Of a DNA stretch of 64,000 nucleotides, positions 35,658-61,938 are shown one piece after another (the first letter of the stretch is position 1; each line of letters begins with the position of its first letter). The DNA lies in contig NZ_BBZK01000004.1 of the NCBI RefSeq assembly GCF_001748085.1, positions 771,239 through 835,238 of the forward strand. Direction: 5' to 3'. Source of the stretch: Streptomyces sp. TP-A0874 (lineage in GTDB: Bacteria > Actinomycetota > Actinomycetes > Streptomycetales > Streptomycetaceae). The translations under genes were made by a program, and so were the position numbers. The notes beneath the pieces were generated by a model, which had not been told where the DNA came from, did not search any database, and worked only from the letters and a program-made list of their open reading frames with translations.

Positions 35658-35669
35658 CAGACCCTCCTC

Positions 35670-36474: not shown

Positions 36475-37671
36475 TCACCCGCGGGTGACGCGGAGTTCGA
36501 CGAGGCCGCGGAAGGCGGGCACGGTGTGCCTTTCGGGAGCTGGGCCGGGAGCCAGGGCGAGCGAGGGGCAACGGTCGAGCAGGGTGGCGAGCGCGACCTG
36601 GGTCTCCACCCGGGAGAGTTCGGCCCCCAGGCACAGACGTGAACCGGCGCCGAAGGAGAGGTGCTGGATGTCCGAACGGGTCACGTCGAACCTCTCGGGC
36701 TCCGGATGCACGCTCGGATCGTGGTTGGCCGAGACCAGCGCCGCCCAGATCCATTCGCCGCGGACGACCGGACAGCCCGCTATCTCGGTGTCCTCGGTCG
36801 CGATCCGGTCGGTGAGCGTCACCGGGCTGTCGTACCGCAGGACCTCCTCCACCGCGTTCGGCATCAACGAAGGGTCCGCGCGGAGCAGTTCGAGCTGCTC
36901 GGGATGTTCCAGCAGGGCCAGGACGGCGTTGCCGATCAGGTCCGTCGTCGAGACGTTGCCTGCGACCAGCAGGGTCACCAGCGTCGAGATCAGCTCCTCC
37001 AGACTGAGCCGCCCCCGCTCGTCGTGCGCCTGCACCAGCGCGGTGATGAGGTCCGCCCGGGGCTCACGGGCGCGTGCCTCGATCTCCTCGATGAAGTACA
37101 CGACGGACTCCCGCCGGGACTGGGCGATGCGGGTCTGGTCCTCCGGTGACAGCGCGGGGTCGTATTCGCGCTTCAGGTCCTCCGACCAGCGGGCCAGCAA
37201 CTCCCGGTCGGCCTCGGGCAGCCCCAGCACCATGGCGATCACGCCGACTGACAGCGGCGCCGCGTACCGGGCCATCAGGTCGAAGGTGTCCTCGCCGGTC
37301 AGATCGTCCATCAGCCCGCTGGCCAGCGCCTCGATCCGGGGCCGCAGCGCGGTGACCTGTCGGCGCGCGAACGCCCTGCTGGTCAGCCCCCGCACCCGAC
37401 GAGCGTCCGGGTCGTCCATGAACATGATCGACGAGCCGGCCATGTCCCGTTGGAGTCGGGTGTACGGGCCGTCGAGGGCCCGCTGGGGGTTCTTCGCGTA
37501 CCGCGAGCTGCGCAGCAGCTCGGACACCTCGGCGTGCCGCAGGGCGAGCCAGCCCTCGGAGGTGTGGTCGTAGACCAGACCCCGGTCGCGGTGGTGGCGC
37601 AGCAGTGGATAGGGGTCCCTGCCGAACTCGGGGGACGCCCAGCTCACGTCTCCGGAGAGGTCCGAGGTCAT
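36475..37671 (-). CDS. Cytochrome P450
   Basis: 398 aa from the ATG at 37671 (a GTG at 37680 is possible). I-helix LLVAGNVSTTDLI, ExxR in VEEVLRY, and the haem loop FGAGSRLCLGAEL with the thiolate cysteine near residue 345. A bacterial class I P450 needing separate ferredoxin and reductase, none of which is nearby. It follows the NRPS on the same strand by 135 bases, so it likely oxidises a carrier-bound residue or the released product. Confidence 0.95.
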   Translation of the reverse strand: MTSDLSGDVSWASPEFGRDPYPLLRHHRDRGLVYDHTSEGWLALRHAEVSELLRSSRYAKNPQRALDGPYTRLQRDMAGSSIMFMDDPDARRVRGLTSRAFARRQVTALRPRIEALASGLMDDLTGEDTFDLMARYAAPLSVGVIAMVLGLPEADRELLARWSEDLKREYDPALSPEDQTRIAQSRRESVVYFIEEIEARAREPRADLITALVQAHDERGRLSLEELISTLVTLLVAGNVSTTDLIGNAVLALLEHPEQLELLRADPSLMPNAVEEVLRYDSPVTLTDRIATEDTEIAGCPVVRGEWIWAALVSANHDPSVHPEPERFDVTRSDIQHLSFGAGSRLCLGAELSRVETQVALATLLDRCPSLALAPGPAPERHTVPAFRGLVELRVTRG

Positions 37672-37806
37672 GATCAGCACCCCCTGTTTCTGCCGGCCGG
37701 TCCAGGCGTCGGAATGGCCCGAAGGGTGGCGGCGCGCGATCGGGCGGTCGGTGGCCGCGGGCTGGTCGTGCCGTGGACCGAGGTCCGGTGGGCGGTCGTG
37801 TCGTCC

Positions 37807-40800
37807 TCAGCTCGGTGCGTCACCACGGTCCCTCTCCCCTTCTTCCCGCTCCCACCGCGTCACGACGGCGGCGGCGAATCCCGCGACGGTCGGGTACCGC
37901 AGGATGTCGAACATGGAGCAGCGCTGCCCGAACTCGGCGGTGATGCCGCTGGCCAGCGCGGCGACGCGCAGCGAATGGCCGCCCGCGGCGAAGAAGTCCT
38001 CGTCCACCCCGATGCTCTCGACGCCCAGCACCTCGGAGAAGACGCGGACCAGCCGCTCCTCGACGGGCGTGCGCGGCGCGCCCCCGGCGGGAACCGGCAG
38101 GACCGGCTCGGGCAGCGCGGCCCGGTCGATCTTCCCGGTGGCCGTCCGGGGAAAGCGGACCAGCACCGCGAACGCCGCCGGCACCATGAAGTCCGGCAGA
38201 CGCTCACCGGCGTGCGCGCGTAGCTCGGCTTCGGTGGGCCGGGGGCCCGTCGGCCGGGCCGCGACGTACGCCACCAGGCGCGGCTCCCCGGCGAGGGGTC
38301 GCACGGTGACCACCGCTTCGGCGACGCCCGGGCAGCCCAGGAGGGCCGCCTCCACCTCGGCCGGCTCGACGCGGATGCCGCGCACCTTCACCTGGCCATC
38401 GCTGCGGCCGACGTGTTCCAGCTGGCTGTCGGAGGTCCACCGCGCCAGGTCGCCGGTCCGGTACATCCGGGCACCGGGCGGTCCGAACGGGTCGGGGACG
38501 AATCGTTCCGCCGTCAGCTCGGGCTGCCGGTGGTAGCCCTCGCCGACCAACCCGGCCATGTACAACTCCCCGACGACGCCGGGTGGGACGGGTTCGAGCC
38601 GGGCGTCCAGGACGTGGGCACGCATGTTGGCCAGCGGTCGCCCGATCGGTACCGCCGTCTCCCGCTCCGCGACAGCACCGGCCGCGGCGCCCGATGCGGC
38701 CGGCCCACCCGTGCCCCCGCCCGCGCTCCCGGCGGCGGGGTCCGTGGTCGGGTTGGGGTCCGGCAGGGTGTGGGCGGTGGCGTAACAGGACTCGCTCTGC
38801 CCGTAGGCGTTGACCAGCCGGACCCCCGGCCAGGTGGCGCGCACCCGGTCGACGAGGCTCGGTTGGAGCGCCTCCCCGGCACACACGACGGTGTCCGGGC
38901 GGACCCGTTCCGCCGTCTCCGGGAGGATCTCGGCCAGGACGGACGGAACGCCGCTCAGCACCGTTCCCGTCCAGCCGGTGTGTTCCGTCAGCTCCAGCAG
39001 GTCTCCCACCAGGTCCAGCGTGCCGCCGGTGAACAGCGCGGTGAACACCTCGAAGACCGAGACGTCGAAGGTGACCGAGGTGCTCGCCAGAACGCGGGGT
39101 GCCCCGTCCGGGGCGACCTGGGGGGCCAGTGCGAGAACGTCGTTGACGACCGTGCCGTGGCTGATCCGGGCGCCCTTGGGGACACCGGTGGAGCCGGAGG
39201 TGTACATGAGGTACGCGGTGTCGGCCGGGCCCGGCCCGTCGGCAGGGGCCAGCGGGCGGGCGCCGGGCCGGTCCAGGTCCTCCAGGAACACCGTCCGGGC
39301 GGAGGAGGGAGGCAGCCGGCGCGCGGTCGCGCGGTCGGTCAGGACCAGCGCGGGCTCCGCGTCGTCGAGGACGGTCCGGGCACGCTGTCCCAGCCAGCGC
39401 GGGTCGAGCGGGACGTAGGCCGCCCCGGACGCCAGGATGCCCAGCAGCGCGACGATCAGCTCCGGGCATCGGGGCAGCGCCAGGGCGACCACCGTCCCCG
39501 GCCGCGCGCCGCTCTCGCGGAGCGCGGCGGCGACGCCGTGCGCCCGGTCCATCAGCTCGCTGTAGCTCAGCGAGGTGTCGCCGCAGGTGACGGCGACCGC
39601 CTCGGGGGTCAGCTCCGCCTGCCGCGCGACCAGTTCCGGAACGGACAGCTCGGGCACCGGCACCACCGGTCCGATGGAACGGGCCAGCTCCCGCGTGCGC
39701 TCCTCGCCGGACAGCAGGAGCACGGCCCCGGCGGCCAGGGCCGGGTCGGTGACGGTCTGCTCCAGCACCCGGACGAACTGGGCGGCGATCCGCTCGACGG
39801 TCGCGGCGTCGAACACGTCCGTCGCGTACTCGACACGGGCCGTCGCGCCGCCGTCGGGCAGCTCGCAAACCTCGAAGAAGAGGTCGAACTTCGCCGTGCC
39901 GGTGGACACCTCGCACGGCAGTGCCCGTGTCCCCTCGAACGTCAGCCGCGGCCACGCCAGTTCTTCGGTCTGCCAGGCCAACATCACCTGGAAGAGGGGG
40001 TGGTAGGCGGTGGAACGGTCCGGGTTGACCGCCTCCACGACCTGGTCGAAGGGGATGTCGGCGTGGTCGTAGGCGGCCAGCGCGCGGCTCCGGACCTGCC
40101 GGAGCACCTCCTCGAAGGTCATCGCCCCCGTCAGCCGCACCCGCAGCACCCAGGTGTTCCCGAAGTAGCCGGTGGTCTCCGTCAGGGCCTCGTCGGTACG
40201 GCCGGCGCTCAGCGCGCCGACGGGCAGGTCGTCGCCGGCGCCGAGGCGGTGGAGCAGCACGGCGAACGCGGCTTGGAGCACCATCGACTCGGTGGCGCCG
40301 TACCGACCGGAGACGGCGCGGACCCGCTGCCGCAGCTCCGGCGGCAGCTCCACTCGGGTGACCGCCCCGCGATGGGTGGCGATCGGGGGACGGGTCCGGT
40401 CGTGGGGCAGCGGCAGTGGCTGCGGCAGCCCCGCCAGCTCCTGGCGCCAGTAGTCGAGTTGTCGCGCGCCCGGGCCGTCGCCGCCCAGCAGTTGCCGCTG
40501 CCAGTGGGCGAAGTCGGAGTACTCGACGGGCAGCGGCGCCCACTGCGGGGCCGCACCCCGGGACCGGGCCGCGTAGGCGGCCGACAGGTCGCGGGCCAGC
40601 ACCCCCTCGGAGGTGCCGTCCGTCGCGATGTGGTGGACGACCATGAGGAAGACGTGCTCGTCCGGGCCCACGGTGAGCAGTGTCATCCGGGCCGGAGGCT
40701 CGTCGGTCAGCGTGAAGCGGTGCCGCGCCTCCTCGTCGAGGGCCTCCCGCAGCTGGTCCGCTCCGACCTCCCGCACGCCCAGCGCGGGGCCGGCAGGCAG

Positions 40801-42852
40801 CAACCGGGGCACGGGTTCGCCGCCGATCTCCTCGAAGACGGTACGCAGGCTGCGGTGGCGCAGGCCGACGTCGGTGACGGCCGCGGCCAAGGCGCCCCGG
40901 TCAACGGAGCCCGACAGACGCCAGGCGACCGGCATGTTGTAGGCGCAGCCCTGCGCGTCGACGGCGTGCAGCAGCCACAGCCGCCGCTGCGCGAACGACG
41001 CCTCGCCGTCCGCTCCGGGCGGGGCGGACCGGACCGGGACGCGCGCCGGGGGGAGGCCGTCGCGGAGCGCGGCGGCGAGGCCTCCGACCGTCGGTGTCGC
41101 GAACACCTGGCTGATCGACAACTCTGCGCCGAAGGTGGTCCGCACGGCGGCGGCGAGCCGGGTGGCGAGCAGCGAGTGGCCGCCGAGGGCGAAGAAGTCG
41201 TCGTCCAGGCCGACCTCCTCGACGCCGAGGACCTGGACGAAGAGCGCGGCGAGCCGTTTCTCGTCGGCGGACACCGGCTCCTGGTACCCGGCGGCCGAGC
41301 GGTCGTCGGGCAGGGCCGCCCGGTGCAGCTTGCCGTTGGCGGTGCGGGGCAACCGGTCCAGCAGGACGCAGGTGCTGGGAACCATGTAGGGCGGTAGCGA
41401 CGAGGCCGCGTGGCTCAGGAGTTCGGAGGTGTCGGGGGATCGGCCGGGCGCGGGCACCACGAAAGCGGCCAGCCGGTGGGAACCGTGCCGGCCGGCTCGG
41501 GCGACGACCGCGACCTCGGCGACGTCCGGGTGCAGTTCCAGGGCGGACTCGACCTCGCCCGGCTCGATCCGGAAACCGCGTACCTTGACCTGCTGGTCGG
41601 CGCGGCCGGCGAAGAGGAGGTCGCCCTCCGGGGTCCGGCGGACCAGGTCGCCGGTGCGGTACATGCGGGCGCCGCCGGGGCCGAACGGGCAGGCGACGAA
41701 CCTCTCGGCCGTCAGGCCCCGCCGTCCGGCGTAGCCGTGGGCGAGCCCCGCTCCGGAGATGTACAACTCCCCGACCCTGCCGTCCTCGACCGGCCGCAAC
41801 CGTACGTCCAGGACGTGGAGGCCGGTGGCGTTGAGCGGGCCGCCGATGCGCACCGGGGCGTCGTCGCCCAGCACGCTGCTCGTGGACCACACGGTGGTCT
41901 CGGTCGGGCCGTAGAGGTTGACCACCTCGGTCGCGCAGCCGCGCAGCCGGGCGGCGAGCGTGTCGGAGAGCGGTTCCGCGCCGACGAACGCCCGGAGGCC
42001 GCGGACGGCCGCCGGGCCCTCCGGCTCGAAGGCGAGCAACTCCCGCCATAGTGACGGTGTCGCGTGCAGCACCGTCGCGCCCGTCTCCGTCAGCAGGGCG
42101 GCCAGCAGCCGTGGATCGCGGACGGTCTCCGAGTCGGCGAGGACGAGGGTCGCACCGGAGATCAGCGGACTGTACAGCTCGGGCACGGCCATGTCGAAGG
42201 CGACGCTGCTCACCGATACCAGGCGGTCGTCCGCCGTCAGCGGCATCACCCGTCGCATCGAGGCCAGCAGGTTGTCCAGCGCCCGCTGGGGAACCACGAC
42301 CCCCTTGGGCCGCCCGGTCGATCCCGAGGTGTAGACGACATAGGCGACCTCATCGGGCACCGCCCCGGTCACCTCGGGAACGGTTCCGGTCGGGTCGGCC
42401 TTCGGGACGGGTCGGGACGGCGGCGGGTCGCCGACGGGCCGGCCGCCGGTGTCAACGGCCAGCACCTCGGCGGCCCCGTACCCGGGTGCGGACGGGACGG
42501 TCAGCAGCAGGTCGGCACCGGAGTCCGCCAGCGTGTACCGCAGCCGGTCGGCCGGGTAGGTCGGGTCCAGCGGCAGATAGGCAGCGGCGGCCCGCCGCAC
42601 GGCCAGCAGCGCGACCACCATGCCGACCGAACGGGGCAGACAGACCGCGACGACCGTGCCCCGGCCCACCCCCCGGGCTCGGAGGGTTTCGGCCAACGCT
42701 CCGGACCGCTCCTCCAGTTGACCGTAGGTGAGCTGCTCGGCTCCGCTGACCACAGCGACCGCCTCGGGCGCGGCCGCGGCCCGTTCGCCGATCAGTGTGA
42801 TGAGGTCGGCGGTGCCCACGGGGCCCCCCACCGAGGCGACGTCGGTCGTCAT
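37807..42852 (-). CDS. Non-ribosomal peptide synthetase, A-T-C-A-T
   Basis: 1681 aa. Order: A1 (about 12-510), T1 (phosphopantetheine Ser near 555 in [11 protein letters not shown]), C (about 610-1050, active site HHIATDG near 741), A2 (about 1075-1590), T2 (Ser near 1625 in [11 protein letters not shown]). A-domain cores are intact ([24 protein letters not shown]). No starter C, thioesterase or reductase domain, so it should make a dipeptidyl thioester that another enzyme releases. By hand alignment to GrsA the specificity residues read D-M-P-H-F-G-L-V-W for A1 and D-V-F-S-V-A-A-Y-A for A2; I will not name amino acids. A2 has [11 protein letters not shown] where most have AYGPTETT. Start overlaps the PaiB stop by ATGA. 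Confidence 0.95.
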
Positions 42853-43622
42853 GGCTGTCCTCCGGTCGGGTCAGTGTCGGGAGCTGTGGTCCGGGCGGCG
42901 GGCGGGTCGGCGGAACGCACCGGCCGGGGCGCGTCGGACCGTGCCGCCCCACCCGGCGCGTCCGGTGGTGGTCCGGCGACGCCGAGGTCGCGCATGGTGT
43001 CCGCGACCTGGCGGGTGCGCTCCGAGCCCGCGGCGAGGACGTCGGCGATGGCGGTGCGCACCGGCCGGGGCTTGTCCTGGCTGAGCTTGAACATCCCCTC
43101 CGCCGCGGTGACCTGGAAGGAGAACGCCCCGGCGCCGCCGACGATGCGGGAGAAGTAGTGGAGTTCGTCCGTCATGTCCCAGCCGGTGCCGTGCTCGCGT
43201 TCGTAGGCCGTGACGGTCGCCTCGACGACGCGCAGCGTCTCCTCCGCGGTCCCCAACGGCTCCGGTGTGCCGTGGACGTGCACAGCGACGAAGTTCCACG
43301 TGGGCGCGACATCCCTGGCCTGGTAGACGGGCGGCGAGATATAGGCGTCCGGACCGGTGAAGACGAGGATCCCGGGACCGCCGGCGGCGAGCGCCGCCCA
43401 GTGCGGGTTGGCCCGGTTCATGTGGCCGAGCAGTTTCACCCCGACCAGCCCGCATGGCCCCGTACCGTGTTCCAGCCCCGATTCCTCGGCCGGAATGACC
43501 GGGAGATGGGTGGCGAAGGGACCGTGTTCTCCCTGGGTGATGAGCAGCGCCAACGGGAAAGCGGTGACGACCCGACGCGCCCATCCCGGAGATTCAGGAT
43601 GATAGGAGGGAGGAACGAACAC
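42849..43622 (-). CDS. PaiB-family FMN-binding protein
   Basis: 257 aa from a GTG at 43622 ([11 protein letters not shown]). Family stretches: [54 protein letters not shown] and [10 protein letters not shown]. PaiB proteins are annotated as negative regulators but have a flavin split-barrel fold and could act as a flavin enzyme in the pathway. The last 45 residues are Pro/Ala-rich filler. First gene of the P450-NRPS-PaiB strand and directly coupled to the NRPS. Confidence 0.85.
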
Positions 43623-43767
43623 CTGACCCCGTTTCCTTCGGTCTTTGAAAACCCCAATTCCGGTCAGCCGCAGACTCGGTGCCGAGGCAGTCGGATAGGT
43701 CAGATCAGCTCCACCTGGCAAAACTCACGCGTGGCCGGGCTGGTCAAACCCGCACGCGGGCGGCCTA

Positions 43768-43929: not shown

Positions 43930-43945
43930 TACACTACGGGAAGCC

Positions 43946-45910
43946 ATGAGATCGGTAAACACCTGTATCCTCGCGCACATTGACGCTGGTAAGACCAGTC
44001 TCACCGAGCGTCTCCTCTACGACAACGGCGTTCTGGACACACTCGGGAGCGTCGACGCCGGAACCACCCGCACCGACTCCAACGAGATCGAACAACGCCG
44101 CGGTATCACCGTCCGAAGCGCGGTCGCCTCGTTCGACACCCGGGACCGCCGGGTCAACCTGGTCGACACACCCGGTCACTCCGAGTTCATCGCCGAGGTC
44201 GAACGGGCGCTTCGGGTACTGGACGGGGCGGTTTTGGTGGTCTCCGCCGTGGAAGGCGTCCAGGCGCAGACCCGGGTCATCATGAAAACCCTTCAAGAAC
44301 TGCGTCTGCCCACACTCGTCTTCGTCAACAAGATAGACCGGGGCGGTGCGCGCGGTGACGAGTTGCTCACCGAAATGCGGGCCCGGCTCTCGCCCCATCT
44401 CGCGCCCATGAACCGCGCGGAGAACCTCGGCTCCCCGGCGGCGGTCACCCGTCGAAGGGAGGATCCGGAGGCACTCGCAGCGGTGTTGTCCGAGCACGAC
44501 GAGGCGCTGCTGGCGGACCTGGTCGCCGACCGACCGCCGGACAGCGCCGACTTGGCCGCCCGCCTGGCGGAGCAGACTGCCCGCGGCCTGGTGCACCCCG
44601 TCTACTTCGGATCCGCCCGCACCGGGCAGGGCGTCGCCGACCTCGTCGAAGGCATCCGCACGCTGCTGCCGCCCGCGCCCGCCGACGCCGACGGGCCCCC
44701 GCGCGGCACGGTGTTCGCCGTGGAGCGGGCCCCCGGCGGCGCCAAGATCGCCTATCTGCGCCTGTTCGAGGGCGAACTCCGGCCGCGCCAACGGGTGTCC
44801 TGCTTCCACAACAGCGCGGACGGCACCGCAACCGGCTACTCCGGTCAGATCAGCGGCCTTCGGGTGGTCCGGGCGGGGGACGGAGCGCACGAGACGGTCG
44901 ACGCACGGGCCGTCGCCGGTGACCTGGTCAGCGTTCGCGGGCTCTCCCAGGTGCGCGTCGGCGACACCCTGGGCGCCCCCGACGACTCCGCGGGCAGCCA
45001 CTACTTCGCCCGCCCCACCCTGGAGACGCTGGTGCGGTCGGCCCATCCGCGGGACACCATCCGCCTGCACGCGGCGCTGGTCGCGCTGGCCGAGCAGGAC
45101 CCGCTGATCAGTACCCGCCCCGCGGCCGGCGGGCAGACCTCGGTGCTGCTGTACGGCGAGATCCAGAAGGAGATCATCGCTGAGACCCTGTCCCGGGAGT
45201 TCGGCGTCGAGGCCGCCTTCGAGCCGAGCCGCCCGCTCTACCTGGAACGGCCCGCCGGGCGTGGCGCCGCCTTCATCGGCATCACCCACACCCCCTTCAC
45301 CGCCGGGGTGGGCCTCCGGGTCGAGCCGGCGCCGCGTGGAGCCGGCGTGCTGGTCGAGCGCGAGGTGAAGTACGGAGCCCTGCCGGCCGCCTTCCACTCG
45401 GCGATCGAGAGCACCGTGCGGGCGACGCTCACACAGGGGCTGCTGGGGTGGCCCGTCACCGACTGCCGGGTGACGGTCACGCACACCGAGTTCGACAACG
45501 CCACGAGCTGCGGCGGCGACTTCCGCAACCTGACCCCCCTGGTCCTCATGCGCGCGCTGAGCCGTGCAGGCACCCGGATCTACGAACCGTGCCACGTCTT
45601 CGAGGCCGAGGCGCCGCTCGATCTCCTGGAGGCCGTCACCACCAGGCTGCTGTCCCTAGAGGCGCGCATCCGGGAGACAACGACCCGGGCCGGCAGCTGG
45701 GTCGTCTCCGGTGACCTGCCGGCCCGCCAGGTGCACACCATCACCCGGCAGCTGCCGGACCTGACCCGTGGTGAGGGCCACTGGTGGTCGCGGGCCCGGG
45801 GCGACCGGTCCTGCCGGGGCGCCGTGCCGAGTCGCGAACGGACCGACCGGAACCCGCTCGACCCCGGCGAGTACATGTTTCACTTTGTGGGCAAGCTCCG
45901 CACCAGATGA
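43946..45910 (+). CDS. Ribosomal-protection GTPase (TetM/OtrA-like)
   Basis: 654 aa, close to the 640-660 of the TetM/OtrA class. GTPase motifs: G1 AHIDAGKTSLTE, G2 RRGIT, G3 DTPGHSEF, G4 NKIDRGG. EF-G-like domains II-V follow, with C-terminal domain IV-V stretches VEREVKYGALPAAFHSAIEST and LRRT-like end. These proteins bind the ribosome and dislodge drugs from the decoding site. In a biosynthetic cluster it is most likely self-resistance, implying that the product acts on the ribosome near the A site; a duplicated EF-G-like role is the alternative. Monocistronic or read with the M3 gene 114 bases downstream. Confidence 0.9.
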   Translation: MRSVNTCILAHIDAGKTSLTERLLYDNGVLDTLGSVDAGTTRTDSNEIEQRRGITVRSAVASFDTRDRRVNLVDTPGHSEFIAEVERALRVLDGAVLVVSAVEGVQAQTRVIMKTLQELRLPTLVFVNKIDRGGARGDELLTEMRARLSPHLAPMNRAENLGSPAAVTRRREDPEALAAVLSEHDEALLADLVADRPPDSADLAARLAEQTARGLVHPVYFGSARTGQGVADLVEGIRTLLPPAPADADGPPRGTVFAVERAPGGAKIAYLRLFEGELRPRQRVSCFHNSADGTATGYSGQISGLRVVRAGDGAHETVDARAVAGDLVSVRGLSQVRVGDTLGAPDDSAGSHYFARPTLETLVRSAHPRDTIRLHAALVALAEQDPLISTRPAAGGQTSVLLYGEIQKEIIAETLSREFGVEAAFEPSRPLYLERPAGRGAAFIGITHTPFTAGVGLRVEPAPRGAGVLVEREVKYGALPAAFHSAIESTVRATLTQGLLGWPVTDCRVTVTHTEFDNATSCGGDFRNLTPLVLMRALSRAGTRIYEPCHVFEAEAPLDLLEAVTTRLLSLEARIRETTTRAGSWVVSGDLPARQVHTITRQLPDLTRGEGHWWSRARGDRSCRGAVPSRERTDRNPLDPGEYMFHFVGKLRTR

Positions 45911-46024
45911 TCACCGACCGAGGCGGACACCGTGTCGCCAGGGGCGACACCGCGGCGTTCCCGGAGCGGCGTCGGCCCCGCTTCGGTCCCGGCCACCCCG
46001 CCGGAGAACGAACCAGGACAACCG

Positions 46025-48037: not shown

Positions 48038-48043
48038 TTCCCG

Positions 48044-54264: not shown

Positions 54265-54578
<314 letters not shown>

Positions 54579-54819: not shown

Positions 54820-56592
54820 ATGCAACTCGACGCCATCACCGGCCTTGACCAGGCCAGTCTTGCCGAAACTCGCCGGATTCTCCACGATATGAAAGAACGC
54901 CTCGACGCCATAGTCGCCGAGGACCGCCTGACGCAGGCCGCATTCGTGGAGCTGGCCGCCATCTACGACAACGCCGCCTACGTGTTCCTCTACCTTGAGT
55001 CGAATGAACAGCACGTTGACTATCGGGCTCTCCTGCCTTATCGGACGGCTTTTTTCAAGAACGACGTGCTCGACGGCCGACTCCGCGCGCTGTGTGCACA
55101 GTTGAACTGCGAGGACCCTGAACTCGAAGAGTGTCGGCGCGCTTACGTTGCGCATCTCGACGGGAAACTCACGGCTGATCCCGGCCGCGCCGAAGAACTG
55201 GAAAAATTGCAGGAACATGTAAAAGAAATCGCCCGCGCGGGAGACCGCGACCAGCTCGCCCTTCTCGGACGGCTGGGCCTCGACATCTCGTCCGGCTCAG
55301 CCCGGTCCATCGCGTACTCCGTGATCAGCGCCACCGGTGACGCCTCCCGGCGCGCCAAGCTCGCCGGGGCGATGACCACGCTGCGGGACAAGCGGCTCGG
55401 CGCGCTGCTGGAGACGACCGACCGGATGGTGGCCGTCCGGCGCGAGGACAGCCGGCACCGGGGCTTCGCCACCCCGCTGGACGAGACCATGCGCCGCTGC
55501 TCCCTGTCGGTCGAGGCGGCGCGCGGACTGGTCGACGACTACCTGGTGGGCGCCATCGAGGAACACCGCGCCCTGGAGGCGGAGATCCGAGAGGTCGTCG
55601 GCGAGGTCGCCGCCCCCATGGACCACTTCGGGCACTACCTGCGGAAACTCCAGGGCGACCTGCCGGTTCCCCTGTTCGACCTCCAGGACTGCCTGGGCTT
55701 CGTCCGACGCGTCGCCGAACGTGTCTTCGGCCTCACGATGAGCCAGCTCCCCGACAACGGCTCCCAGGTGCTGACCGTCGTGGTGTCCCGGGGAGAGCAG
55801 GTCGTCGGCTACATCAACTTCGACCTGTGGGACGCCGGGCGGAACCGCGCCGCGAACTCCACCAGCGGCATCCGGAACCGAGTCGACTGGGGCGACATCG
55901 TCCAGCTCCCCATCGCCTACGTCTCCTGCCGGTTCCACCGGCAGCCTGACGGCCGCGACCGCATCACCTTCCAGAACGTCCACAGCCTCTTCCACGAGAC
56001 CGGTCACGCCCTCAACCACCTGCTGGTCAGCAAGCGCCTGCCGACCGTCTCCGGCCTGGACTACCTGCCGCTCGAGCGCATCGAGGACCTCAGCATGTGG
56101 CACGAGAGGTGGGTGTACCACCCGGACTTCGTGGACCACCTCGACCTGTCCGCCGACGAACGCGCGGGCATGGAGTTCTGCCAGCGGGCCAAGATTCTGG
56201 AGTACCAGCGCACCCACGTCGAACGTGCCGTCACCGCCGCGCTCGACTTCGGCGTGCACGGCGCCGAGGAGGGCGGGCTGCGGGCCGAGTTCGACCGGCT
56301 CGACGAGCGGTTCGACATCTCCCGCTACTGCTCGCTGGGGGACTACCCCGTCTACTTCTCCTGGCCCATGATCAACGCCAACCCGGGGGCCAGCTTCGTG
56401 TACACCCGGAGCGCCGCGGCCAGCGCCGAGGCCTTCGCACCCGTCCTCGGGCGTCGGCTCGACGATCTCGACCCGGCCGAGTTCGAGGGGCGGTTCGCCG
56501 CCTGCTTCGACTACGACCTGCCGAGCGGTACACCGGACATCCGGTCCATCTTCACCTCTTACCGAGACCTCCTTGGAAAGCCGATCTCATGA
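54820..56592 (+). CDS. M3 family metallopeptidase, third copy
   Basis: 590 aa. Zinc motif SLFHETGHALNHLL near residue 392 and LPLERIEDLSMWHERW downstream, sharing GIRNRVDW and RTHVERAVTAALDF with the second copy (RTDW; AAPERAVTAALDF). The two clearly form a subgroup distinct from the first copy. It is the gene after the small peptide and overlaps the O-methyltransferase by ATGA. Likely cuts the modified peptide or a peptide intermediate in the cytoplasm. Confidence 0.9.
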   Translation: MQLDAITGLDQASLAETRRILHDMKERLDAIVAEDRLTQAAFVELAAIYDNAAYVFLYLESNEQHVDYRALLPYRTAFFKNDVLDGRLRALCAQLNCEDPELEECRRAYVAHLDGKLTADPGRAEELEKLQEHVKEIARAGDRDQLALLGRLGLDISSGSARSIAYSVISATGDASRRAKLAGAMTTLRDKRLGALLETTDRMVAVRREDSRHRGFATPLDETMRRCSLSVEAARGLVDDYLVGAIEEHRALEAEIREVVGEVAAPMDHFGHYLRKLQGDLPVPLFDLQDCLGFVRRVAERVFGLTMSQLPDNGSQVLTVVVSRGEQVVGYINFDLWDAGRNRAANSTSGIRNRVDWGDIVQLPIAYVSCRFHRQPDGRDRITFQNVHSLFHETGHALNHLLVSKRLPTVSGLDYLPLERIEDLSMWHERWVYHPDFVDHLDLSADERAGMEFCQRAKILEYQRTHVERAVTAALDFGVHGAEEGGLRAEFDRLDERFDISRYCSLGDYPVYFSWPMINANPGASFVYTRSAAASAEAFAPVLGRRLDDLDPAEFEGRFAACFDYDLPSGTPDIRSIFTSYRDLLGKPIS

Positions 56593-57263
56593 CGGGAAGC
56601 CCCGACCACTACATCCGTTCCATGCTGGGCCCCCGGGACGGCGTCCTGGACGAGATCCTCCGGGACGCCCTGCTCGACAAGCGCCTGCCGGCCATCCAGG
56701 TCGACGACAACGGCGCGCGGATGCTCCAGCTCATCACCATGCTGCATCGCCCGCGGCTGGTGGTGGAGGTGGGCACCCTCTTCGGATACTCCGCCGTCCA
56801 CATCGCCCGGGGCCTGCCGCCGGACGGCCGTCTGGTCACCATCGAGTCCAATGCCGAGTCCGCCCGGCTGGCCGAGGGGTACCTGAAGCGCGCCGGGGTC
56901 GCCGACCGGGTCGAGGTGGTGCACGCCGACGCCGCCACCCACCTGGCCACGATGGACCCCGACAGCTGCGACATGGTCTTCGTCGACGGGGACAAGAAGA
57001 GCTACCCCCAGTACCTCAAGCTGTGCTTCCCGCTGCTGCGCAGCGGGGGCCTGCTCATCGCCGACGACACCGCCCCGGGGTTGGATTTCAGCGGCGAGTC
57101 GGAGCCGGGCGCCGACCCGGACCGGGAGGCGGTCGCCATCAACACGTACGTACGGGCGGCGGCCCGCAGCAACCGGTTGTTCTCCGCGTTCGTCGGGACC
57201 ACCCACGGGCTGATGGTGAGTTACAAGGACTGGCCGGCCGAGCAGCCGACACCACCGGCGTGA
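56589..57263 (+). CDS. SAM-dependent O-methyltransferase (catechol/caffeoyl-CoA type)
   Basis: 224 aa, PF01596-like. SAM site VVEVGTLFGYSAVHIARGL, then VTIESNAESARLAEGYL, and the metal-binding VFVDGDKKSYPQYLKL with GLLIADDTAPG. These enzymes use a divalent metal to methylate vicinal hydroxyls; related ones methylate other hydroxyl or carboxyl groups, including hydroxylamines. Coupled to the M3 gene by ATGA. Confidence 0.88.
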   Translation: MTGSPDHYIRSMLGPRDGVLDEILRDALLDKRLPAIQVDDNGARMLQLITMLHRPRLVVEVGTLFGYSAVHIARGLPPDGRLVTIESNAESARLAEGYLKRAGVADRVEVVHADAATHLATMDPDSCDMVFVDGDKKSYPQYLKLCFPLLRSGGLLIADDTAPGLDFSGESEPGADPDREAVAINTYVRAAARSNRLFSAFVGTTHGLMVSYKDWPAEQPTPPA

Positions 57264-57328
57264 TCGCAGCCCCACGCGCGGTGGGTAGGCCGGTCAGGAC
57301 CACGGGATTCGATCTGGAGGAACAGCGA

Positions 57329-57400
57329 GTGCGCGGAACGAACACGACCCCCACCCCGGGGTGCGCCGGCCGGCGGACCCCCGTCCGGGGGCGCGACTGA
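57329..57400 (+). CDS. Possible 23-aa leader ORF before the TPR gene
   Basis: A GTG at 57329 with GGAGG eleven bases upstream opens a frame reading VRGTNTTPTPGCAGRRTPVRGRD, here broken as VRGTNTTPTPGC and AGRRTPVRGRD. Its TGA overlaps the ATG of the TPR gene (TGATG). The TPR gene has no good ribosome site of its own, so this mini-ORF may serve translational coupling. It could also be chance. Confidence 0.35.
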   Translation: MRGTNTTPTPGCAGRRTPVRGRD

Positions 57401-58635
57401 TGACGGCGCACGACAAGCTGCCCTTCCACCGCAGCGCGTTCCACCGGACGATGCTCGGCCTCAGCCACGAAGCCGAGGGCACCGGCGAACCGGACATCTT
57501 CTCCCAGGGCTGTGTGGAGGCGTTCGAGAACGCCGACTGGGACCGCTTCGGCTACCCGTTCACCCAGGTCTTCGAAGCCGCGGTCCTCCAGGAGACCGCC
57601 GCCCTGGAGCAGATCCCCTACGCCGACCTCGCCCGCCTGACACACCGGCCGACGGCCGCCATGCGCCGGCTCGGCGAACTGCTGGACAACCGCCTCGAAC
57701 TGGACTTCGTGCGGCGGATCAACCTGGCCTCCGCCCTGACCAGTGTGGCCCGGCTCGACCTGGCCCACGAGGTGCTCACCGAGGCGACGGAACTGGCCGT
57801 CACCGACCGGGACCGGTTCGAAGCCGCCTGGCTTACCTTCGTCGTCTCCAACCGCCGTGACGACGGGGAGGACTCGGCAACGGCCTTCACCGCCATGCGG
57901 ACCGCCGCCGGCACCGGTGACGTCCCCGTGGCCCGGGTGCTCGACGCCTGCACGCAGGGCGTGGTCTGGTACCTGAAGCGGAAGGAGATCTCGGAGGAGG
58001 ACTTCCGCTGGTGCGTGCGCACCGGCAACGCCCTCGCCAAGCGCGGCGCGACGGTCGACGACGCCGCCGTCTCCTCGTGGTACCGGGGGCTCGCGATGCT
58101 CCCCGCGGCGAAGGGGATGCCGGAGCAGACCCGCGCCTACATGGAGGCCGCGCGCCGGGCGGCCGAGGAGACGGTCCGGCGCCAGCGGCGGGCCGATGCG
58201 CTGAACCTGCTGAAGACGTACCACGAGTCCTCCCTCAAGGAGCACATGTACGTCACCCGCGACCGGGACGCGGCGGTCGCGGCGGGCCGGGACCTCATCG
58301 CGCTGGACCCCGCCTGGTCGGTCAGCTACGGCGAACTGGCCGAGGCCCACGTGCGGTTCGGCAGCCCGCTGGAGGCGGCGGAGCTGTACGACCAGGCCGT
58401 TGCGGCCGGGCCGCCCTACGTCGGCCACCACCTGCTGAAGTCCGCCGGCTGCTGGGAACGGGCCGACGAGCCCCGGCGCGCGCTCGACGCCTACCGGAGC
58501 CTCGCGCGCCTGGTCCCCGGCAACGCCGAGGTGCTGGCCGGCGGCCTGCGCTGCGCCCGTCTCCTGGCGGACCCCTCGGCCAGCGCCTTCGAGACCGCGC
58601 TCGGCCGGCTCGGCGTCTCGGGGACGCCGCGTTGA
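57400..58635 (+). CDS. TPR-like helical repeat protein
   Basis: 411 aa, all-helical, with tetratricopeptide-like repeats in the C-terminal third (SYGELAEAHVRFGSPLEAAELYDQAVAAG, then CWERADEPRRALDAYRSLARLVPGNAEVLAGGLR). The N-terminal half (LPFHRSAFHRTMLG) has no known domain I can name. No signal peptide. Probably a cytoplasmic scaffold or substrate-binding protein; coupled to the PQQ-like gene by overlapping TTGA, which suggests the two products work together. Confidence 0.75.
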   Translation: MTAHDKLPFHRSAFHRTMLGLSHEAEGTGEPDIFSQGCVEAFENADWDRFGYPFTQVFEAAVLQETAALEQIPYADLARLTHRPTAAMRRLGELLDNRLELDFVRRINLASALTSVARLDLAHEVLTEATELAVTDRDRFEAAWLTFVVSNRRDDGEDSATAFTAMRTAAGTGDVPVARVLDACTQGVVWYLKRKEISEEDFRWCVRTGNALAKRGATVDDAAVSSWYRGLAMLPAAKGMPEQTRAYMEAARRAAEETVRRQRRADALNLLKTYHESSLKEHMYVTRDRDAAVAAGRDLIALDPAWSVSYGELAEAHVRFGSPLEAAELYDQAVAAGPPYVGHHLLKSAGCWERADEPRRALDAYRSLARLVPGNAEVLAGGLRCARLLADPSASAFETALGRLGVSGTPR

Positions 58636-59864
58636 AGCAGCCCGTGAGCGCGGTCCCCGACACGGGGCGGCAGCCGGCCACCCCGGCGTCCCGACATGAT
58701 CCGCTCAAGACCGTGCTGCCGCTGCGCGAGGAGGCGCCCGCCGCGATCCGCTGGGACACCGAACCGGCCGTCTGCGGGTACACCCGACTGCTCCACCACA
58801 ACGAGCGGCTCGGCACCGACATCCCGGTCCCCGTCTCCGCATCACCGGTCGCGGTGCCCGGGGCCGGCGCGGTCGTCGGCACCTACGACGGCCTGGTCCG
58901 CTTCCACAACCGCGCGTTGAGCAGGACGTACTGGCAGACGGCGCTCGGTGCGCCGGTCTACGCCTCCCTCGTCGCCGACCGGCGGCGACAGCGGGTGGTG
59001 GCGGCGACCACCGCCGGCCGGATCGTCTGCCTCGACCTGCGGGGCCGCACGGTCTGGCAGGCCGAGGCCGAGACCCCCGTCTACGCCACCCCCGCGGTGG
59101 TGCCCGCCGCCGACCTGCTGGTGGTGGCCGGGTTCGGCAGCCGCTGCCTGGGATTCGACCTCGCTACCGGAAAACGCCGGTTCGCCCGCGAGCTGCCCGC
59201 GCCCTGGCACGCCGAGGACGGCTCCGCCGCCCACCGGGACCCCTACGCCAGCCCGGCGGCGACCACCACCGGGAGCACCGTCGTGGCCTGCGCGGAGCAT
59301 GTGCTGGCCCTGGCCCCGGACGGCTCGGAACGCTGGCGGCACGAGCTGGGGCATTCCGTCAGGTCCTCGCCCGTGGTGCTGCACGACCGGGGCGAGGTCG
59401 CCGTCTGTTCCGTCGACGGCCGGTGCCTCTTCCTCGACCTGGACACCGGGAAGCCGCTCGGCCAGGTGGATTTGGGCGGCAAGGTGATCGCCAGCCCGGT
59501 CGCCGCCGGCGGCCTGCTCGTGGCCGGCACCCAGCACGGTCGGACCGTCGGGATCGACGTGGCCCGCCGCGCCGTCGCCTGGGGCGCGCCCGGCTACGGC
59601 CCGCGCGAGTACACCTCGTACACCCTGCTGCCGGACGGCAACCTCACGTTCCTCTCGGCCCGGGGCAACGCCGTCGGCCTGCGCCGCGAGGACGGTCACT
59701 TCCTCTGGGAGACCAGCCAGGTACTGGGCCTGGCGGACCACGACCCGGCCCTGGACACCACACCGGTGGTGGCGGGCGACGGCAGCATGTACTGCGGCTC
59801 CTACACCGGGATGCTGTACCACTTCCGGTTCCGACCGGAAGAGAACGACAAGGAGCGGTCATGA
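58632..59864 (+). CDS. PQQ-like beta-propeller repeat protein, cytoplasmic
   Basis: About 410 aa from a TTG that overlaps the TPR stop; a GTG at 58644 is an alternative. Six or more blades with the PQQ-enzyme signature: RIVCLDLRGRTVWQAEAE, RCLGFDLATGKRRFARE, HVLALAPDGSERWRHELG, RCLFLDLDTGKPLGQVDLGG. No signal peptide or lipobox, unlike secreted quinoproteins and AztD. Catalytic residues of quinoprotein dehydrogenases are not evident, so a scaffold role is more likely than an enzyme. Next to the TPR and SDR genes with overlaps. Confidence 0.82.
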   Translation: MKQPVSAVPDTGRQPATPASRHDPLKTVLPLREEAPAAIRWDTEPAVCGYTRLLHHNERLGTDIPVPVSASPVAVPGAGAVVGTYDGLVRFHNRALSRTYWQTALGAPVYASLVADRRRQRVVAATTAGRIVCLDLRGRTVWQAEAETPVYATPAVVPAADLLVVAGFGSRCLGFDLATGKRRFARELPAPWHAEDGSAAHRDPYASPAATTTGSTVVACAEHVLALAPDGSERWRHELGHSVRSSPVVLHDRGEVAVCSVDGRCLFLDLDTGKPLGQVDLGGKVIASPVAAGGLLVAGTQHGRTVGIDVARRAVAWGAPGYGPREYTSYTLLPDGNLTFLSARGNAVGLRREDGHFLWETSQVLGLADHDPALDTTPVVAGDGSMYCGSYTGMLYHFRFRPEENDKERS

Positions 59865-60616
59865 AACGGGCTCTGGTGATCGGAGCGAGCCACAGTCTGG
59901 GCTCCGCCCTGGCGGGACGGCTGGCGGCCGACGGCTGGTCGGTGACCGGCACCGGACGGCGGCCGGCCGAGGAGGTCGAGGACGCCTCGGCCTTCGACTA
60001 CGTCCGCCTCGACCTCTCGGACAACGCTGAGGTCGAGCGGTTCGTCGAACGGGCCGGCGGCGGGCCGTACGACCTGATCGTCCACAACGCCGTCACCTAC
60101 GGCGCCATGAGCGGCCAGCCCGTGCCGGAACTCGACGCGCTGGAGACCATGTTCCGGGTCAACGCGCTGGTCCCGTACCGCCTGCTGCACGGTCTCCTCG
60201 CCGCACAGCCCGCCGACCGGCACTGCAACTGTGTGGTGATCAACTCCGACTCCATCTACCACTCCACCCCGCAGACCGCGGGCTACGCCGCCAGCAAGGC
60301 GGCGCTCCGGGTGCTGACGGCCTCCCTGGCCACCCTGTTCCGACCCGCCGCCGTCAGCGTCGCGACCCTGCTGCTGGGGCCGCTGCCCGACCCGAAGAAA
60401 CTCGAGAACTTCCAACAGGTGGCCGACCGGCACGGAGTCGAGGCGGCGGAGGTCCGTCGCCGGTTCCTGCGCAAGGCCAACCCGTGGTACGTCATCGACG
60501 ACCTCATCGACTTCGACGCCTGCTACCGCAGCGTCGCCTACCTCGCCGACCTCGGCCCGTCGGCCAACGGCATGATGTGCCGGCTCGACGGCGGCTCCGC
60601 CGGCTCCCTCATCTGA
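59861..60616 (+). CDS. Short-chain dehydrogenase/reductase
   Basis: 251 aa. NAD(P) site ALVIGASHSLGSALAGRL (GxSxxxG), HNAV in LIVHNAVTYG, and the catalytic Ser-Tyr-Lys as INSDSIYHS then GYAASKAAL. It reduces or oxidises a carbonyl/hydroxyl. Coupled by ATGA to the PQQ-like gene and followed by an aminotransferase: a keto-to-amine or alcohol-to-amine conversion is a natural reading. Confidence 0.9.
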   Translation: MKRALVIGASHSLGSALAGRLAADGWSVTGTGRRPAEEVEDASAFDYVRLDLSDNAEVERFVERAGGGPYDLIVHNAVTYGAMSGQPVPELDALETMFRVNALVPYRLLHGLLAAQPADRHCNCVVINSDSIYHSTPQTAGYAASKAALRVLTASLATLFRPAAVSVATLLLGPLPDPKKLENFQQVADRHGVEAAEVRRRFLRKANPWYVIDDLIDFDACYRSVAYLADLGPSANGMMCRLDGGSAGSLI

Positions 60617-60687
60617 CCACCGCCTCGGCGGCGCCCCCGCAGCCGCTCCCCGCCCGACTCCGGGCACCACCCCGCGACGGAGAACCC

Positions 60688-61938
60688 ATGGCACGTGAAC
60701 TCAGCACCCTGTGGCCCCTGATGATGCCCATCGAGCGGCAGGGCGACGAAAACTGCACCGTCGCGGCCAAGGGCGTCCGGCTCACCTTCCTCGACGGCCG
60801 AGAAGCACTGTGCGGCACCAGCGGCCTGTGGAACACCATCCTCGGCTACGGCAACGAGGCGATCGCCGGCGCCGTGCACCAGGCGCTGCTCGACGCCTCC
60901 TACCTGACCGTGTGGCGATACGAGAACGCCTACGCGCGGCGGGCCGCCGAGGCCCTCACCGAAGTGGCCGGCCGCGACCACTACGGCCGGGTCCTGTTCT
61001 CCACCAGCGGCTCGGCGGCCAACGATCTCGTCACCAAGGTCGTGCGGCACTTCTTCGCGCTCCGCGGCGAGCACAGCCGCAAGGGCATCGTCGGGCTGGA
61101 GGGCAGCTGGCACGGCCTCACCTTCGGGGCGGCCGCCCTCACCCACGGCGACCTCGGCAACCGGGTCTACGGGATCGACCGGCGGCTGGTCACCCATGTG
61201 CGGCCCAACGCCACGGCGGAGCTGACGGAACTGCTGGAGCGGCACCGCGGCCGGATCGCCGCCGTCGTGGTCGAACCGGTCATCGGTACCGGCGCGTTGG
61301 AACTCTCCGAGGAGTTCGTCGCCGCGCTCCTGCGGCTCCGCCGCGAACACGGCTTCCTCCTCGTCGCCGACGAGGTCACCAGCGGCTTCTGGCGGGTCGG
61401 CCCGTTCTTCGTCAGCCAGGGCTGGCCGGAACAGCCCGACCTGCTGGTCACCTCCAAGGGCCTGACCAACGGCACGGTCGCGGCCTCCGCGGTGATCGTC
61501 GCGCGCCATATCGCCGACGAGTTCATCGAGGCGGGAGCCGTCCTCGGCCACGGCGAGACCCAGGCCGGGGCGCCGGCGGCCGCCGCCGCGATCCTGGCCA
61601 CCATCGAGGAGATGCGCAGACTCGACGCGCCCGCGCTCAACGCGGCCCTCGCCGCCCGGCTGGACACCGAACTCGCGGCTCTGACCGATGAGATGACGGA
61701 AGTCACCGGCTCGACCGGGCGCGGCTGCCTCCGCGCGATCGAGTTGCGGCACCCCGCCACCGGCGGGCAGCTCACGGACGAGGAGGTCGCCGACACGGTG
61801 GCGGCCATCCGGGCCGAGGGGGCGATCGTCCACCCGGGCCCCAGCTGCGTGCAGCTGCTGCCGGCGCTGATCTACACGGCGGAGGACCTGAGCGAGCTCT
61901 TCGCCCGCATCCGCGCCGGCCTCAAACGCGGCACCTGA
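60688..61938 (+). CDS. Class III aminotransferase
   Basis: 416 aa with GACGGAG before the ATG. PLP fold type I: LFSTSGSAANDLVTKVVR, the Asp in LVADEVTSGFWRVG, and the PLP lysine in LVTSKGLTNGTVAAS; a Trp/Tyr-rich N-terminus (LCGTSGLWNTILGYGN, YLTVWRYEN). From memory it resembles the class III aminotransferases of daptide-type RiPP pathways, which aminate a peptide C-terminus, but the other daptide marker genes (iron dehydrogenase, recognition protein, N-methyltransferase) are not here. Free keto- or aldehyde-acids are the ordinary alternative. Last gene of the rightward operon and of the cluster. Confidence 0.88.
   Translation: MARELSTLWPLMMPIERQGDENCTVAAKGVRLTFLDGREALCGTSGLWNTILGYGNEAIAGAVHQALLDASYLTVWRYENAYARRAAEALTEVAGRDHYGRVLFSTSGSAANDLVTKVVRHFFALRGEHSRKGIVGLEGSWHGLTFGAAALTHGDLGNRVYGIDRRLVTHVRPNATAELTELLERHRGRIAAVVVEPVIGTGALELSEEFVAALLRLRREHGFLLVADEVTSGFWRVGPFFVSQGWPEQPDLLVTSKGLTNGTVAASAVIVARHIADEFIEAGAVLGHGETQAGAPAAAAAILATIEEMRRLDAPALNAALAARLDTELAALTDEMTEVTGSTGRGCLRAIELRHPATGGQLTDEEVADTVAAIRAEGAIVHPGPSCVQLLPALIYTAEDLSELFARIRAGLKRGT

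Follow-up and report, generated by a model that had tools for sequence, protein, structure and literature searches.

Gene content of the locus

The window, by which we mean the whole stretch of 64,000 nucleotides analyzed from Streptomyces sp. TP-A0874, carries a group of 16 genes (Table 1). The gene set named in the preliminary description is present in full and is borne out by Pfam and NCBIfam models and, for the TPR protein, by a structure model that confirms the TPR fold (its Pfam TPR rows fall below the curated cut-off). The best structure matches are repeat proteins for the TPR model and BamB for the propeller model. The nonribosomal peptide synthetase (NRPS) consists of two AMP-binding, one condensation, and two carrier domains, with nothing beyond the last carrier. 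Among the three M3 peptidases, M3a is an ordinary oligopeptidase A/Dcp-type enzyme, and M3b and M3c are a divergent pair with a mutual identity of 33%. M3b carries the motif HEFGH, and M3c has the M3 zinc peptidase signature, with His392, Glu393, His396, and Glu422 (the last of which we take to be the third zinc ligand) invariant among 22 aligned sequences. The SDR retains Ser129, Tyr142, and Lys146 in at least 12 of 13 aligned sequences. In two of the four aligned KAS-like proteins, Asn replaces what is presumably the FabH catalytic His. The window ends at the end of its contig (835,238 bases), with an IS110 transposase at 62554-63756, and the cluster may continue beyond that point.

Table 1. 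Features of the cluster, with positions in the window
Feature	Position	Strand	Basis
Cytochrome P450, likely product oxygenase	36475-37680	-	PF00067; B93 copy 64% identical
NRPS, A-T-C-A-T, without release domain	37807-42852	-	Pfam/NCBIfam domains
PaiB-like FMN-binding protein	42849-43721	-	PF04299 (FMN_bind_2); also in B93
OtrA-like ribosome-protection-type GTPase, predicted self-resistance	43946-45910	+	NF000120, 815.9 bits
M3a, oligopeptidase A/Dcp-type M3 peptidase	46025-48037	+	PF01432, 342.6 bits; predicted start
Lys/Orn-type N-monooxygenase	48123-49451	-	PF13434, 348.3 bits
KAS III-like protein, active-site Cys retained	49536-50552	-	PF08541; alignment of 4; predicted start
M3b, divergent M3 peptidase	50549-52594	-	PF01432; start uncertain, likely further in
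MATE exporter	52518-54029	-	PF01554
55-aa PAFF-family peptide, predicted precursor	54411-54578	+	
Codon of peptide residue 14 (Pro), X after PAFF, predicted modified residue	54450-54452	+	
M3c, family-specific M3 peptidase	54820-56592	+	PF01432; 19/19 clusters
O-methyltransferase	56589-57263	+	PF01596; 19/19 clusters; predicted start
TPR superhelix protein, likely peptide holder	57400-58635	+	Model pLDDT 91.9; PDB TPR matches
BamB-like beta-propeller ("PQQ" protein), likely scaffold	58632-59864	+	PQQ_2; model pLDDT 87.9
Short-chain dehydrogenase (SDR)	59861-60616	+	PF00106; 18/19 clusters
Class III aminotransferase, daptide type	60613-61938	+	NF041821, 555.5 bits (cut-off 450)

Core genes of the cluster family

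We compared 19 clusters (17 actinobacterial and 2 Rhodobacterales-type), scoring a gene as absent when the fetched stretches held no match above 55 bits. Loci L022 to L029 and L037 to L047, which are repeats or pieces of genomes already counted, were excluded. The peptide gene (on a separate contig in one case), M3c, the O-methyltransferase, and the TPR protein are found in all 19 clusters, and the BamB-like propeller and the SDR in 18 each. These genes, and not the NRPS, are the core of the family. The contig of L009 ends inside the TPR gene, and no call is made there on propeller, SDR, or aminotransferase; that of L016 stops 142 bases before the peptide gene. MATE exporters (15 of 19) and KAS III-like proteins (6 of 19) are less widespread. 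The N-monooxygenase of the original gene set is confirmed in the window but is confined to it, as the fetched stretches of the other 18 clusters yield no match above 55 bits.

The gene directly after the SDR encodes an aminotransferase (8 clusters) or an aldo-keto reductase (7 clusters) in 15 of 18 cases. Relatives of the daptide-type aminotransferase (7 of 19 clusters; NF041821 was applied to 4) and aldo-keto reductases (8 of 19) are mutually exclusive across the clusters.

Relationship of the NRPS to the peptide genes

In Streptomyces sp. B93, 14 of the 16 window genes are kept together, the missing two being the N-monooxygenase and M3a. On this ground we regard the window cluster as one unit, as had been proposed, and reject the notion of chance neighbors. 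The NRPS, OtrA-like, and P450 genes of B93 lead straight into the peptide operon, on whose far side lie KAS, M3b, MATE, and PaiB; the gene order differs from that of the window.

An alternative is that two unrelated clusters adjoin here, one for the peptide (MATE to aminotransferase) and one for the NRPS (P450 to M3a). The preliminary description had named separate occurrence of the halves in other genomes as evidence against a single cluster, and for the peptide half such separation is common: most relatives have no full NRPS (17 of 19 clusters, in the fetched stretches), PaiB, or close P450. Close full-length NRPS relatives, however, sit with the peptide family. A full NRPS and the peptide family occur together in five of the six close cases observed, directly so in B93 and by deduction in three others, three of the four further close NRPS relatives lying on contigs identical in length to contigs that carry M3c or the peptide. 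Moreover, the peptide cluster of G1020 adjoins a stand-alone adenylation-carrier protein that is a relative of NRPS module 1. With the same genes contiguous in another order in B93, two independent clusters are scarcely probable.

The five close NRPS relatives (1,633 to 1,713 amino acids) likewise stop after the last carrier domain, and the adenylation pockets are almost identical among all six proteins. At the presumed pocket positions, the residues are not known to match any substrate code.

A family of short peptides with a PAFF motif

The 55-residue peptide is the product of a real gene, because its relatives adjoin the same genes in other genera. It has 11 acidic and 2 basic residues and ends in SAA, an end that varies among other family members. 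A search with the peptide gave at least 239 matches at E ≤ 10, its own sequence included, and the motif counts cover the best 120 of these (E ≤ 2.2e−14, own peptide included). The pattern P-A-F-F-X-(6 residues)-F-F is present in 118 of the 120, although this conservation is inflated because the search selects by common 5-residue words. In all 118, the spacing from X to the next FF is constant at 6 residues, and X is Arg in 77, Pro in 36, and another residue in 5 (Arg or Pro in 113 of 118). When counted from nine residues before PAFF, the Arg at X is the sole Arg in 42 of the 77 Arg-type matches; the other 35 contain further Arg residues, which counts against a special role for X. The peptide of L013 has a single Arg. 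Conservation covers the N-terminal half and, toward the C-terminus, a D-x-E-L-D-x-x-L motif; there is no long variable core.

More than 100 close relatives are named only as hypothetical or uncharacterized in the sources listed, and the window's peptide has no match in scans with Pfam and NCBIfam models. The family, which would be one of ribosomal precursors, has no name so far. No description of it came up among the papers listed in the literature searches; KKPAFF is absent among the literature matches listed, and other motif strings occur in papers whose titles concern unrelated subjects. The family spans several actinobacterial families and two Rhodobacterales-type genomes. Within a phylum-wide sample of 396 genomes, the window's own genome was the only match, and a plasmid search with M3c returned zero matches.

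Enzymes that follow the identity of residue X

Arginase genes were observed in all 8 clusters with PAFF-Arg peptides vs none of the 11 others in the fetched stretches (Fisher's exact test, P = 1.3e−5, if the clusters are independent). The 11 non-Arg clusters include L009 and L030, which are near copies of each other. Mapped on a tree, the Arg/non-Arg trait changes only twice, and the arginase matches it in two of two independent pairs (sign test, P = 0.5); because the tree holds just these two independent changes, the arginase statistics are weak. A JmjC hydroxylase is present in 6 of 8 Arg clusters vs 0 of 11 non-Arg clusters, and a DUF6445 protein in 0 of 8 vs 6 of 11, always with Pro at X. 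Because the distributions of arginase, JmjC, and DUF6445 proteins track X, we suggest that the peptide is probably a precursor and X its site of modification. The fetched stretches of L012, L014, L016, and L017 contain none of P450, JmjC, Asp/Arg hydroxylase, or DUF6445 proteins, and the origin of an alcohol for the SDR in these four clusters is unexplained because they have no oxygenase of the types sought.

The same distributions bear on the possibility that the peptide assists the TPR and propeller proteins in a structural or regulatory capacity and that the product comes from the NRPS and tailoring enzymes alone. Both proteins do resemble repeat scaffolds, and the peptide has an acidic composition and two conserved ends. 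We nevertheless consider such a role very unlikely, given that most clusters have the peptide without a full NRPS in the fetched stretches, that arginase and two types of hydroxylase vary with a single residue of the peptide, and that the M3 peptidases, of which a cluster can have three, would be left without an obvious job.

A recurrent ribosome-protection-type gene

The preliminary description took the GTPase for a ribosome-protection gene and as a sign that the product acts on the ribosome. NF000120 is the best NCBIfam model for this EF-G/OtrA-like protein, yet the score lies below the curated cut-off of 900 bits for OtrA, which leaves the assignment at OtrA-like; in 41 genomes, the window's own included, no match exceeds that cut-off. 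The recurrence of the gene within the family supports the earlier idea: OtrA-like genes were observed in 6 of the 19 clusters vs a background of 0.078 per Mb in the 41 genomes. Because of this recurrence, we suggest that some products of the family hit the ribosome where tetracycline-type protectors work. The predicted product of the window cluster is a small-molecule antibiotic that acts on the ribosome, and the family may serve as a guide to unexplored antibiotics.

Proposed pathway

In all 19 clusters (once across two contigs) a short gene-encoded putative precursor is kept beside tailoring enzymes, and one of its residues tracks a predicted modifying enzyme, albeit over only two independent changes on the tree. 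From these sequence comparisons, we propose that the clusters likely represent a new RiPP-type family that is joined to an NRPS in the window. It is fairly probable that the peptide is made by the ribosome as the precursor of a small product, modified at X and joined here to the NRPS.

The reactions, in their predicted order, would center on the residue right after PAFF, which is Pro14 in the window and Arg in most relatives. The TPR protein and the BamB-like propeller would hold the peptide and so take over the task that usually falls to an RRE domain. The Pfam scan gave no PqqD-like RRE for the 16 proteins, although such scans miss weak RREs, and the propeller may instead be catalytic because the enzyme tetrathionate hydrolase is among its lower structure matches. 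In Arg-type relatives, arginase would convert X to ornithine, which the JmjC enzyme would then hydroxylate; in Pro-type relatives, the DUF6445 protein would oxidize Pro, a role that would fall to the P450 in the window. The SDR could yield a carbonyl and the daptide-type aminotransferase then an amine, with the aldo-keto reductase substituting for the aminotransferase in most Arg-type clusters, and the O-methyltransferase may cap a hydroxyl. M3c and M3b, as zinc peptidases for short peptides, would excise the modified piece at putative cut sites. Where the dimodular NRPS is present (the window, B93, and a few other genomes), it may couple the excised piece to one or two more amino acids, and the KAS III-like protein is a candidate for the release step. 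Export of the product would fall to the MATE protein and protection of the producer's ribosomes to the OtrA-like GTPase.

The preliminary description had suggested a precursor or a scaffold, and the most likely roles are indeed those of a precursor or of a workbench. As a workbench or carrier, resembling TglA and the amino-group carriers, the peptide would have an amino acid built on it and released, and most of it would be recycled or discarded. The retention of both the N-terminal half and the C-terminal motif without a long variable core is consistent with such a role. M3 peptidases are suited to releasing very small pieces and fit it as well, as does an ATP-grasp ligase in L011 and L013 that could join a freed residue. 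Against it, Pfam and NCBIfam gave no row resembling a peptide aminoacyl-tRNA ligase or LysX/Y/Z for the 16 cluster proteins, and the residue that the enzymes track is internal, not C-terminal. Amino-group carrier proteins of the LysW type have zinc-binding Cys residues and a C-terminal EDWGE; the window's peptide has neither Cys nor an end of this type, and we rejected this assignment. Overall, a workbench is unlikely, and we favor the precursor.

More tentatively, and with more doubt than confidence, we conjecture that the family is a new class of precursors read by a TPR-propeller pair and not by an RRE, in which X is swapped together with its enzyme set. The excised residue would be passed to an NRPS or to an ATP-grasp ligase, and the outcome would be small antibiotics aimed at the ribosome. 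If true, a ribosomal pathway would supply building blocks to a nonribosomal one, a hybrid mode of biosynthesis that would be unusual. The pairing of residue X with particular enzymes would make function directly testable with purified components.

Comparison with known systems

The preliminary description knew of no pathway with this gene set, and our searches of papers, as distinct from a database of characterized clusters, likewise gave no close characterized cluster. The nearest systems share single elements with the family. Daptide (mpa) biosynthesis (PMC10036551) needs a C-terminal Thr, the DUF-RRE protein MpaB, the alcohol dehydrogenase MpaC, an N-methyltransferase, and an RRE-dependent intramembrane peptidase. 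The window cluster resembles it in an aminotransferase of the same equivalog, a short ribosomal precursor, and a proposed carbonyl followed by transamination. However, the peptide ends in Ala, and an SDR, an O-methyltransferase, the TPR and propeller proteins, and M3 peptidases stand in place of the daptide enzymes. Pfam and NCBIfam gave no row for MpaB or MpaC among the 16 proteins (best 25 rows in the longer tables). With the aminotransferase fitting but the C-terminal Thr, MpaB, and MpaC missing, we rejected a daptide assignment.

In biphenomycin (bip) biosynthesis (PMC12707348), an Arg next to Phe is converted to Orn by the arginase BipC, and the Orn is hydroxylated by the JmjC enzyme BipG. 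Arginase and JmjC genes likewise lie beside a Phe-Phe-Arg motif in 6 of 8 Arg-type relatives. The window differs in having Pro in the peptide and no arginase, which is confined to the Arg-type relatives. Pfam rows of the MNIO, radical SAM, or TldD type are missing among the 16 window proteins, and given the lack of the first two, we rejected a biphenomycin-type RiPP. The peptide arginases FlmR and OhkR act in systems whose precursors carry a DD(I/V)LF motif (PMC12703449). Orphan precursor families, an arginase, and a conserved C-terminal acidic motif are shared with our family; the motif itself is another one, and the main text of that source contains none of M3 family, peptidase, KKPAFF, or Streptomyces.

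Finally, 3-thiaglutamate is built on TglA, a ribosomal workbench peptide of 50 residues to which a residue is added C-terminally from tRNA and which later undergoes proteolysis (PMC9016710). Like TglA, the window's peptide is ribosomal, and work on the peptide followed by proteolysis is proposed for it. Unlike in the TglA system, no tRNA-dependent adding enzyme was observed among the 16 cluster proteins, and the residue in question lies inside the peptide.

A conserved gene set around a short peptide gene

Every gene named in the preliminary description was present in the window (Pfam, NCBIfam), and we judge the cluster that it reported to be real. The NRPS has two adenylation domains, one condensation domain and two carrier domains and, as claimed from the sequence, a release domain is absent (Pfam). 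The genome holding the window measures 5.1 Mb in 18 contigs, and the right edge of the window is the end of contig C4 (835,238 bases). A transposase gene separates the cluster from that end, and further cluster genes could lie past it. The lower-GC stretch to the left is probably catabolic and outside the cluster.

Features of the cluster, its surroundings and related loci (L and G labels denote relatives' loci or genomes; G000 is the genome holding the window)
Feature	Source	Position	Strand
Cluster, 16 genes	window	36475-61938	
P450, NRPS, PaiB, left to right	window, cluster part 1		-
OtrA-like GTPase, M3a	window, cluster part 2		+
N-monooxygenase, KAS-like, M3b, MATE, left to right	window, cluster part 3		-
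Peptide, M3c, O-methyltransferase, TPR, propeller, SDR, aminotransferase	window, cluster part 4		+
IS110-type transposase	window	62554-63756	
Lower-GC stretch: HpaB-type hydroxylase, flavin reductase, M20 peptidase, AstE/AspA-type hydrolase	window	30524-36056	
APH-type phosphotransferase and EPSP-synthase-like protein with N-terminal HTH, beside SDR	L016	7540-10138	
Second OtrA-like gene	G000:C7	63540-65417	
Pentapeptide-repeat protein inside cluster	L018	13620-14288	
Pentapeptide-repeat protein inside cluster	L030	10221-10940	

Relatives were traced through M3c, the family-specific one of the three M3 peptidases in the window. It has relatives at 13 loci in named genomes. Sampling of the order found it in 6 of 391 genomes (all of the window's genus, its own genome included), and sampling of the phylum in 1 of 396, the window's own. 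The families of three relatives gave 4 of 346 genomes (family of L013, its genome included), 2 of 300 (family of L011) and 2 of 295 (family of L014), both genomes in each of the last two being already known. Tracing yielded 19 distinct clusters. M3c, the O-methyltransferase and the TPR protein occur in all 19, the propeller and the SDR in 18 (the missing case, L009, stops at its contig end) and the MATE exporter in 15. The peptide gene is found at 18 of the 19 loci, and the 19th genome (L011, Micromonospora tarensis) carries the peptide on another contig. Both L011 and L013 hold an ATP-grasp ligase, an Asp/Arg-hydroxylase-type protein, an OtrA-like gene and other NRPS modules or pieces; the two are likely a sister product line.

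The 55-aa peptide had no match in Pfam or NCBIfam. Searching with an alignment of 13 peptides returned at least 239 related proteins at E ≤ 10, a lower bound because scoring was limited to the 7986 candidates sharing most words. Among the matches listed, the best 120 (own peptide included) all have E ≤ 2.2e−14, none has a Pfam domain, and each source name shown for them is either "hypothetical protein" or "uncharacterized protein." The motif PAFF is present in 118 of these 120, a conservation somewhat overstated, like the figures that follow, because relatives were picked by common 5-residue words. The residue right after PAFF (X; Pro14 in the window peptide) is Arg in 77 of the 118, Pro in 36, Gly in 2, and Ala, His and Asn in 1 each. 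The spacing from X to a second FF is exactly six residues in all 118, where E or D always follows, mostly then A-E-A. The C-terminal part contains D-x-E-L-D-x-x-L, whose Asp, Glu, Leu, Asp and last Leu are invariant in the 13 aligned peptides. We place the peptide as a predicted new precursor family of the RiPP kind, in the window joined to an NRPS.

Candidate peptide-binding and maturation proteins

The TPR protein is modeled as an all-helical TPR superhelix (pLDDT 91.9), with structure matches that include consensus TPR arrays, APC/C subunits, the TPR part of OGT and LGN. The PQQ-like protein is modeled as a propeller (pLDDT 87.9) whose main natural match is BamB; an enzyme, tetrathionate hydrolase, is among its matches from rank 33. 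These models point to scaffolds, although catalysis is possible as well. Because a scan of the cluster proteins gave no Pfam match to a PqqD-like domain, we propose that the TPR and propeller pair may bind the 55-aa peptide.

M3b and M3c are 33% identical, and the profile of M3c shows only a remote likeness to M3 enzymes of solved structure, oligopeptidase A among them (2.4e−24). More than one M3c/M3b-type gene is present in 6 of the 19 clusters (window, L015, L018, L020, L021 and G866), which fits a short peptide cut at more than one place.

The SDR is known in 18 clusters. In 15 of them the gene directly after it encodes a daptide-type aminotransferase (6 clusters), an aldo-keto reductase (7) or, in one cluster each, a DegT aminotransferase (L019) and a GSAM-like aminotransferase (L014). 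In L018 the aminotransferase, and in L010 the reductase, lies at another position of the cluster, and neither type was seen in the cluster stretch of L016. No cluster combines a daptide-type aminotransferase (7 of 19 clusters) with an aldo-keto reductase (8 of 19), though a DegT-like match lies ~3.5 kb away from the reductase of L010. Of the six daptide-type aminotransferases other than the window's, three were run against the NCBIfam daptide-type model NF041821 (cut-off 450) and passed (L015, 577.1 bits; L018, 544.1; L020, 558.2), and those of L030, L049 and L050 were assigned by 56 to 74% identity to the window's. We infer that the SDR would form a carbonyl, which would next be aminated or reduced.

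Predicted link between the NRPS and the peptide

In Streptomyces sp. B93, 14 of the 16 window genes lie in one stretch, only the N-monooxygenase and M3a being missing. Its NRPS is 60% identical to the window's, and the next gene encodes an alpha/beta hydrolase that could be a candidate for product release; no such hydrolase lies next to the window's NRPS. Among the best 120 of 7892 NRPS matches, beyond which further relatives are possible (the B93 NRPS is itself not among the 120), at least four others fall within this length class (1633 to 1664 aa, 58 to 64% identical). Three of these four are on contigs identical in size to one bearing M3c (P0097 and P0098) or the peptide (P0199), and the fourth, P0253, has no such partner contig among the matches listed. 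The M3c-type partners of P0097 and P0098 are 42 to 43% identical to M3c versus 36 to 38% to M3b. Adenylation-pocket surroundings consist of nearly the same residues in these six NRPSs (the window's, that of B93 and the four others). Given the B93 stretch, the three shared contig sizes and the like pockets, we predict that in some genomes the NRPS forms part of the peptide cluster.

Predicted self-resistance

An OtrA-like gene is present in 6 of the 19 clusters (window, L011, L013, L018, L020 and L051); no OtrA-like gene, the window's included, passes the curated cut-off of the OtrA model (NF000120, 900 bits). The background is 28 such genes in 25 of 41 genomes (40 relatives and the window's own, which has 2), or ~0.078 per Mb, so that a random 35-kb stretch would hold one in ~0.3% of cases. 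The six clusters occupy four separate positions on the tree, and shared descent weakens any P value for this recurrence. The ribosome, which the preliminary description had suggested as the site of action, is our predicted target of the product. The second OtrA-like gene of the window's genome scores 864.8 bits, above the cluster's own 815.9. The pentapeptide-repeat proteins inside two Pro-type clusters are possibly another kind of self-protection.

Residue X and its accompanying enzymes

Variation at X is accompanied by variation in gene content. An arginase gene is present in all eight PAFF-Arg clusters (L011, L012, L013, L015, L017, L019, L021 and L033) and was found in none of the 11 non-Arg clusters (10 Pro, one of them TAFF-Pro, and 1 Gly). 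A JmjC hydroxylase occurs in 6 of 8 Arg-type versus 0 of 11 non-Arg clusters; DUF6445 proteins show the opposite pattern (0 of 8 versus 6 of 11). The corresponding Fisher values (arginase, 1.3e−5; JmjC, 0.001; DUF6445, 0.018) presuppose independent clusters, which the 19 are not. L009 nearly duplicates L030, and on a tree of five joined proteins two Arg/non-Arg changes suffice, one between the two Rhodobacterales-type clusters and one in actinobacteria. Arginase follows both (2 of 2; sign test, P = 0.5), and so low a number of independent changes is among the weakest points of our reading. In 42 of 77 Arg-type peptides the Arg of PAFF-Arg is the sole one, the other 35 contain further Arg residues, and Pro-type peptides lack Arg in 29 of 36 cases, all counts starting nine residues before PAFF. 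The pairing of arginase with a JmjC hydroxylase in Arg-type clusters is telling because biphenomycin uses the same pair: arginase and then a JmjC hydroxylase modify an Arg adjoining Phe (PMC12707348).
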